A stretch of DNA of 64,000 nucleotides from Gammaproteobacteria bacterium. Its GTDB lineage: Bacteria; Pseudomonadota; Gammaproteobacteria; GRL18. The stretch lies in the NCBI GenBank assembly GCA_015488755.1, contig WFNB01000032.1, forward strand, positions 1-64,000. The letters are read 5' to 3'. This document shows positions 10,441 to 55,185 of this stretch, piece after piece (position 1 is the first letter of the stretch; each line of letters starts with the position of its first letter). The notes under the pieces were generated by a model. It had not been told where the DNA came from. It saw only the letters and a program-made list of their open reading frames with translations, and did not search any database. A program made the translations under genes and the position numbers.

Positions 10441-10465
10441 ACTCTAGATAAGATGATCTTAAAAA
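10441..10465. repeat. Partial copy (D) of the dispersed intergenic repeat
   Basis: ACTCTAGATAAGATGATCTTAAAAA vs ACTTTGGATAAGATGATCTTGAAAA in the intact copy (22/25). Confidence 0.6.
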
Positions 10466-15912: not shown

Positions 15913-15932
15913 ACCTGAACTCTGGATAAGAT
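15913..15932. repeat. Partial copy (B) of the dispersed intergenic repeat
   Basis: ACCTGAACTCTGGATAAGAT vs ACCTGAACTTTGGATAAGAT (19/20). Confidence 0.65.
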
Positions 15933-16006
15933 AATATTTTTTCCTACAAGTAAAGTGAATGATTTATAATGCTTGCAATTATCGGTCTTTAACTTGGGGA
16001 AACGGC

Positions 16007-41861: not shown

Positions 41862-42416
41862 TCAATCAAGCCATTTAATAGAACAACCCATGCTGGGAAT
41901 TTGTTCGGTGGGTCCTATGCCTGATTGAGCAATTTGCTTCATTGCTTCAAATAAGTCACGTTTGACACCTTCTGGTGCTGTATCTTTTCGTGAGGCGTCT
42001 AAACGGCCTCGGTATTGCAATTTAAGGCTCTTGTTATAACCAAAAAAATCTGGCGTGCAGACAGCACCATATTGCTTGGCTACTTTTTGGTTAGCATCTA
42101 ATAGATAAGGAAATGAAAATGCTAAAGATTGAGCTAGTTTTTTCATGTTTTCAGGGGAATCTTCATCATATTGTGTGGCATCATTTGACATAATAGCAAC
42201 ACTATTAATGCCCAATGATTTTAGCTCTAAAGTATCTCGTATTAAACGTTTAAGTATGGCCTTAACATAAGGGCAGTGATTACAAATAAACATCACCAAT
42301 AAGCCATTTTCACCACAGCATTTTTTTAGATCCCACAATTCTCCGCTGGTATCAGGCAGTGAAAAATCAATAGCAGGCTGATTAAAATCACAAATAGGCG
42401 ATTGTAGACTGACCAT
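41862..42416 (-). CDS. Thioredoxin-like / AhpC-TSA family protein
   Basis: FSLPDTSGELWDLKKCCGENGLLVMFICNHCPYVKAI. Confidence 0.88.
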   Translation of the reverse strand: MVSLQSPICDFNQPAIDFSLPDTSGELWDLKKCCGENGLLVMFICNHCPYVKAILKRLIRDTLELKSLGINSVAIMSNDATQYDEDSPENMKKLAQSLAFSFPYLLDANQKVAKQYGAVCTPDFFGYNKSLKLQYRGRLDASRKDTAPEGVKRDLFEAMKQIAQSGIGPTEQIPSMGCSIKWLD

Positions 42417-42460
42417 TTAGAGACCCCGTATATTTTTTAGGTTAAAATTGTGCGCTTATC

Positions 42461-42540
42461 ATAACCTGAACTTTGGATAAGATGATCTTGAAAATAACTT
42501 CAATGACGTTACTTATTCAGTTATCCAGAACTCAGGTTAT
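42461..42540. repeat. 80-bp palindromic repeat, intact copy (A) of the dispersed intergenic repeat
   Basis: Terminal inverted repeats ATAACCTGAACTTTGGATAA (42461-42480) / TTATCCAGAACTCAGGTTAT (42521-42540), 16/20; TTATCATA at both ends (42456-42463, 42537-42544). Confidence 0.8.
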
Positions 42541-42604
42541 CATATCACTAAAAACTATGAATTTTATTCAATTTATCATTCATTTTCTTTAAAATATATA
42601 AAGT

Positions 42605-42661: not shown

Positions 42662-43822
42662 ATGGCCAATAGCCACTTGTTTACCTCTGAATCTGTTTCC
42701 GAAGGGCACCCCGATAAAGTTGCCGATCAAATATCTGATGCGATTCTTGATGCAATTTTAAGTGAAGATAAAGCTGCCCGTGTCGCTTGTGAAACAATGA
42801 TAAATACCGGTATGGTTGTTATCGCAGGTGAAATAACAACCTCTTCTTATATTGATATGCAGCAAGTGGTACGAAACACTATTAAAGAAATTGGCTATAA
42901 CCATTCTGATATGGGTTTTGATTATCGTTCTTGTGCCGTATTAACGTGTATTGATAAGCAGTCGGCTGATATTGCTATGGGCGTGGATGTGACCGATAGC
43001 CACGAACAAGGTGCCGGTGATCAAGGCCTCATGTTTGGTTATGCGAGCAATGAAACAGATGTACTCATGCCCGCTCCTATTACTTATGCTCACCAACTCG
43101 TTAAACGCCAAGCAGAGGTAAGAAAGTCAGGTTCTTTAAACTGGTTACGTCCAGATGCTAAAAGTCAGGTGACCTTTCGCTATGAAAATAATGTACCAGT
43201 GGGTATTGATGCCGTTGTTTTGTCTACCCAACATGATGCTGATATTGCTATTGATACTTTACGAGAAGCTGTTATGGATGAGATTATTAAACCCATCCTG
43301 CCAGAAAAATGGTTAAGCAAAGACACTAAATTTCATATTAACCCAACAGGACGTTTTGTTATTGGCGGGCCTGTGGGCGATTGTGGTTTAACAGGACGTA
43401 AAATTATTGTTGATACTTATGGTGGTATGGCACGTCATGGAGGAGGGGCTTTTTCGGGTAAAGATCCTTCTAAAGTTGATCGCAGTGCCGCTTATGCGGG
43501 TCGCTATGTTGCTAAAAACATTGTTGCTGCAGGTTTGGCTGAACGTTGCGAAATACAGGTGTCTTATGCTATTGGTGTGGCTCAACCCACATCGATTTCA
43601 GTCAACACCTTTGGGACAGCAAAAATTAGTGATGAAAAGCTGGTTGCTCTGATTAACGAACATTTTGATTTGCGTGCTGGTGGTTTAGTTAATATGCTGG
43701 ATCTATTACGTCCTATCTATAGAGCAACGGCAGCTTATGGCCATTTTGGTCGTGATGAGGCGGGATTCAGCTGGGAAAAAACCGATAAGGCAGAGGCTCT
43801 GAAGTTAGCAGCGGGCATTTAG
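42662..43822 (+). CDS. metK: S-adenosylmethionine synthetase
   Basis: [60 protein letters not shown]. Confidence 0.97.
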
Positions 43823-55105: not shown

Positions 55106-55120
55106 TGCGGTTCGGTTATC

Positions 55121-55157
55121 TAACTTGAACGCTGGATAAAATGATTTTGAAAATAAC
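55121..55157. repeat. Partial copy (C) of the dispersed intergenic repeat
   Basis: TAACTTGAACGCTGGATAAAATGATTTTGAAAATAAC vs TAACCTGAACTTTGGATAAGATGATCTTGAAAATAAC (32/37). Confidence 0.7.
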
Positions 55158-55185
55158 GTGTTTATACTAGAAATACATGGTTACT

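Follow-up and report, generated by a model that had tools for sequence, protein, structure and literature searches.

A transposed MITE beside metK, its probable IS982-family mover and the TwoAYGGAY RNA core of its full-length relatives

A short inverted-repeat unit between a redoxin-like gene and metK in the genome of a Gammaproteobacteria bacterium is, judging from its sequence and that of its relatives, almost certainly a transposed MITE, and the joint reading, in which it is a MITE copy with an IS982 transposase as its mover, is highly probable. The unit alone is an ordinary core-less remnant; its full-length relatives (family MITE-1) contain a structured core matching the TwoAYGGAY RNA motif, and the same core is found in a second MITE family. 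The unit lies in what we call the window, namely, the whole 64,000-nucleotide stretch of DNA that was analysed (contig WFNB01000032.1).

When the unit was used as a query against its own genome (3.53 Mb, 122 contigs), 68 matches were returned, mostly paired, with the query's left half followed by its right half more than 100 bp further along. The family consensus is 187 bp with flanking TA included, and the typical element is 183 bp, with ends ACCTGAACTCTGGATAA and TTATCCAGAACTCAGGT. A pattern scan for such ends, allowing up to three mismatches, found 44 left and 57 right ends in the genome, and the reversed-pattern control found 0. Among the fetched loci there were 44 distinct two-ended copies (truncated copies exist besides), mostly of 182–184 bp, with seven of 209–212 bp and four of 73–82 bp. 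The first-pass annotation of the window had described a dispersed intergenic repeat family, and the genome bears this out: the 44 copies are far from chance-level matches only, and none overlaps an ORF of 100 or more amino acids, all being intergenic. Short, bounded by terminal inverted repeats, devoid of coding capacity and present in many copies, MITE-1 has the defining traits of a MITE. Sister elements with MITE-1 ends and core are also present in congeners, and a search for MITE-1 in phages or plasmids found no match. The idea that the lone right ends are halves of a longer element was rejected, in that no opposite end accompanied by a transposase was found at IS distance.

Direct repeats of 6–7 bp, mostly TANNTA, flank 38 of the 43 readable MITE-1 copies when the ends are taken as ACC...GGT; after permutation of right flanks between copies, a mean of only 4.6 copies (maximum 10) had a duplication. 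We dropped the boundary AACC..GGTT (4-bp duplications) for ACC..GGT (6-bp), since no longer repeat is obtained otherwise and IS982 ends, too, begin with AC.

The seven 209–212-bp copies (L004, L059, L104, L108, L110, L127 and L128) form a subfamily in which about 26 additional bp, GCCCGAAGGAAGTACTCTTGGGGTGC, supply one more AGGA beside the second hairpin of the core.

The RNA core and its two carriers

The 183-bp form folds into a single long hairpin that forks at its tip into two hairpins (z = –10.4), with ATGGAT and AAGGAT around their loops. The Rfam model for TwoAYGGAY (RF01731), a motif described in 2010 (PMC2864571), matched four own-genome copies at 43.5–44.6 bits, above its gathering score of 43, with others just under. 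In both that motif and full-length MITE-1, a longer stem stands over two hairpins with loops of the AYGGAY type; the differences are that in this species the second loop reads AAGGAT and the window copy is without the motif, and that here two MITE families, each with target duplications, carry the motif. Of the 40 long MITE-1 copies, 35 have two GGA loops, always 23 nt apart. Other Rfam identities (Ysr224, microRNAs, a viral pseudoknot) were rejected, all scoring below their own thresholds, Ysr224 moreover on the strand opposite the core. Every named database match to the core was a MAG, under the label Gammaproteobacteria, Pseudomonadota or Thiohalomonas.

Covariation was assessed on 33 divergent cores from several genomes, chosen by loop sequence regardless of stems; because of this choice, the invariance of the loops across genomes is partly built in. 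The stems were paired in 80% of cells (shuffle maximum 60%), 346 cells were changed on both sides (shuffle maximum 164), and slid structures scored below the unslid one. This strong stem covariation is not a selection effect; in the long outer stem, correction between palindrome arms could account for part of it.

The second family, MITE-2, is found in the same genome as a 152-bp element with ends CATAGGTAGGTACTTAA, 10-bp duplications in six of its eight copies and the same two-hairpin TwoAYGGAY core (L130:586-737, and 152-bp elements in L135, L136, L137, L138, L139, L140 and L127). A 156-bp chimera at L125:3097-3252 combines MITE-1 ends, a MITE-2 core and one MITE-2 end, with the 6-bp duplication TAAATA. 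Since MITE-1 and MITE-2 have unlike ends and duplication lengths, they would be moved by different transposases, at least two of which would have mobilised the core. That one core has two carriers favours a role of the core itself, without saying which.

One candidate role is the binding of CsrA, which was proposed for TwoAYGGAY in 2014 as an independent prediction (PMC4333381). The second hairpin, CUACAAGGAUGU, agrees with the CsrA SELEX consensus RUACARGGAUGU in 11 of its 12 positions; sites separated by 10–63 nt are within the reach of one CsrA dimer (PMC7652899), and the genome encodes a canonical CsrA, adjoining an aspartokinase-like gene. With this consensus and spacing, the two-GGA-loop core looks like a candidate CsrA-binding RNA. 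It resembles the CsrA/RsmA-sequestering sRNAs CsrB, RsmY and RsmZ in its repeated GGA in hairpin loops, at a spacing that suits bridging by a CsrA dimer; in contrast to them, it offers two sites per copy only, at many dispersed loci and with no evidence of its own promoter. Transcription of the core would probably come by read-through from neighbouring genes, and a CsrA/RsmA dimer is the ligand that we consider likeliest for a transcribed full-length core, although we put such binding at somewhat less than an even chance.

A serious alternative, to which we likewise give a little under half of our confidence, is that MITE-1 is purely selfish, its hairpin core being kept for transposition or as a DNA cruciform, not for CsrA binding by RNA. 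Consistent with this, the divergence of the core among own-genome copies is only mildly lower than that of the rest of the element (3.6% vs. 4.9%), the GGA-loop positions are not clearly better conserved than the rest, copies that lack the core and nonetheless have duplications exist, and the GGA strand has no clear orientation bias relative to neighbouring genes among MITE-1 copies. However, a purely selfish element does not readily account for the same core in two MITE families whose ends are unrelated and whose duplications differ in length, nor for a chimera in which it was swapped, and the GGA is kept in the loops while the stems are rewritten; a role in DNA only needs no ANGGA loop.

Returning to the CsrA-binding interpretation, it can be extended to the proposal, which we regard as speculative and on balance unlikely, that unrelated MITE families in the genus captured, swapped and spread a candidate CsrA-binding RNA module, with transcribed copies that titrate CsrA or put sites for it onto many mRNAs; if true, transposition would tune or rewire the Csr regulon. 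In any event TwoAYGGAY gains a mobile carrier, which offers a reason for its many dispersed copies, and the question of whether transposons scatter binding sites of a global RNA-binding regulator is made testable. In our literature search, mainly of non-subscription papers, neither TwoAYGGAY nor a CsrA-type site was found reported within a MITE. A parallel is seen in Coxiella burnetii, whose QMITE1 and QMITE2 are, like MITE-1, bacterial MITEs, of about 50 copies each, some of which give rise to small RNAs (PMC5896051); these are different elements, with duplications of 2–3 nt for QMITE1, described in a paper that mentions neither CsrA nor IS982.

A further class of TwoAYGGAY repeats occurs in congeners G001, G004 and G005 (L238, L240, L241, L242, L244 and others), often as inverted pairs 120–190 bp apart; these repeats have degenerate CTTTTGATTTTGCTC-like pyrimidine-rich flanks and end near CGAACG. 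In another family of the class, genome G032 has at least 28 RF01731 matches, many spanning only model positions 45–113 with near-identical scores, which suggests a recent dispersed repeat there too; these matches fell outside the pattern by which cores were recognised in the present analysis.

The probable mover

An exact end sequence in G005 proved to mark the left end of an IS, through which related ends were traced in G011, in G008 and in several contigs of G003, the last of which stop inside the IS. The IS982 transposase model (NF033520) has a match within the G008 element, some 200 bp in from that end, and another at G011:C40, where the stop of the ORF is followed by TTATCCAGATCTCAGGTT; PF13612 agrees in both. 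These two transposase pieces come from different genomes and are either broken or run off the end of a contig; an intact IS with these ends was not recovered. MITE-1 is classed as an IS982-type MITE because an IS982-family transposase is encoded by those IS elements of the genus whose ends match, and on these sequence matches IS982 is strongly indicated as the mover.

Published IS982 ends start with AC, and the duplications of the family are 2–10 bp long (PMC7335449), a range that includes those of MITE-1. Set against the IS982 end consensus AC(N)6T(N)5TT, ACCTGAACTCTGGATAA fits at AC, at T9 and at the first T of TT, with TA in place of TT. MITEs derived from IS982 are known from Cardinium, for example MITECca01 (PMC9769881), which, in the accessible part of its description, shares with MITE-1 the AC start and a T as ninth base of the inverted repeat (as does the IS982 family; PMC7335449) and also a short transposase-less form, many copies and a mostly intergenic location. 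The structured RNA core of MITE-1 sets it apart, none being described for MITECca01 in that same part.

An IS982-family transposase would act on the AC-starting inverted ends and duplicate 6–7 bp of a TANNTA-like target; MITE-1 itself would be non-autonomous and moved in trans. The first-pass annotation had suggested seeking an autonomous transposase with matching ends; an IS982 transposase behind such ends was encountered in congeners, in the incomplete elements of G008 and G011. No such transposase was found in the 122 contigs of the unit's own assembly, where multicopy IS elements may have been collapsed or lost. As for an autonomous IS with these ends in the own genome, none was found by DNA, and the sole IS982-model match there was weak and lay in a 459-aa ORF.

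Palindromic, intergenic and dispersed, the copies might recall extragenic palindromes of the REP/ERIC type, spread by RAYT or gene conversion and not by IS982. We consider this very improbable because the target duplications are clear, consistently of 6–7 bp, and they are joined by matching IS ends. The annotation had left the choice open with its wording of a small non-coding REP/MITE-like element, and it is the MITE half that is upheld, by the duplications, the empty site described below and the IS982 transposase behind matching ends.

In G005 the left end of the IS (L162:3029-4760, G005:C43) is interrupted by what, from our reading of its reverse-transcriptase ORF, looks like a group II intron.

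The copy between the redoxin-like gene and metK

The inverted-repeat unit had been placed at 42461–42540, in the spacer between a thioredoxin-like gene and metK, and it is there, between divergent gene starts: 47 bp before the redoxin/thioredoxin-like gene (41862..42416, minus strand; PF00578) and 124 bp before metK (S-adenosylmethionine synthetase; 42662..43822, plus strand; PF00438, PF02772 and PF02773). Its 20-bp inverted arms are real, with 17 positions paired by our recount in place of the 16 first given, and the palindrome AAGATGATCTT is present as an 11-mer with its first base at 42479 (42478 as first given) and an unpaired base at its centre. The 8-mer TTATCATA does occur at both borders, as reported; it is repeated owing to a 7-bp target duplication, TATCATA, at 42457..42463 and identically at 42538..42544, which is single in the empty-site reconstruction, so that of the two origins first offered for the border repeat, target duplication or palindrome, the former is substantiated. 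The duplication also moves the limits of the 80-bp unit inward, to an element proper of 74 bp (42464..42537, plus strand; ACCTGA...TCAGGT) with both ends matching the family. The left terminal inverted repeat, ACCTGAACTTTGGATAA (42464..42480, plus strand), equals the family end and the congener IS ends save for single bases, and the right one, TTATCCAGAACTCAGGT (42521..42537, plus strand), is exactly the family right end and near the IS right end TTATCCAGATCTCAGGT in L184.

This copy had been taken for intact and for the founder of its family, and it is neither. It is an internally deleted derivative of the 183-bp element: aligned to the consensus, about 110 bp are gone, and the junction ATG (42503..42505, plus strand) joins consensus positions 1–39 to 152–183. 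The core was probably lost by slippage at the long hairpin, in an internal deletion. The middle is missing from each of the four short copies, among which this one is counted, and their breakpoints differ; therefore the deletions look independent. Both AYGGAY hairpins are absent with the deleted core, and an Rfam search at the copy gave no TwoAYGGAY match. The fold of the remaining unit with short flanks beats all 200 of 200 shuffles (z = –3.1).

Empty sites in relatives, another prospect raised at first pass, were found for this copy. In G002, G003 and G014 the orthologous metK spacer is without the unit, its flank blocks standing 51 bp apart vs. 123 bp here, and when the element and one duplication are subtracted from the window sequence, alignments to congener spacers cross the junction. 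This comparison, made against several congeners, concerns the window copy alone, and the spacer has diverged, so that the empty site is well defined towards metK but drawn with less precision at its opposite border.

That the unit is instead a conserved regulatory palindrome of this spacer, an operator or RNA element, might be thought from its good fold and its place between divergent gene starts, but we give the idea hardly any credence, given that the congeners lack the unit, that promoter-like sites in the region are at about the shuffled level with no promoter or terminator inside the unit, and that near-identical ends stand beside dozens of unrelated genes. As a MITE copy, it would now be a passive leftover in the spacer that separates the divergent redoxin-like gene and metK.

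Parts of the unit had been reported to recur in three other spacers of the window, of which one withstood scoring with a profile from 33 full copies, where the best of 20 shuffled windows reached 10.8 bits. The 20-bp arms themselves have no second match elsewhere in the window with up to three mismatches allowed. The candidate at 10441 was rejected as a family copy, its 7.7 bits being indistinguishable from chance by score. The match at 15913..15936 (plus strand), at 10.7 bits, is likewise at the level of the best shuffled window; its first base coincides with the start of the element's end sequence, and it is possibly a solo left end, though not a secure one. The third, reported at 55121, is a truncated left-end fragment of the MITE-1 family (55124..55159, plus strand) that scores 14.8 bits, above 20 of 20 shuffled windows, and has a blastn match over 55113–55157 (E = 1.7e–8).
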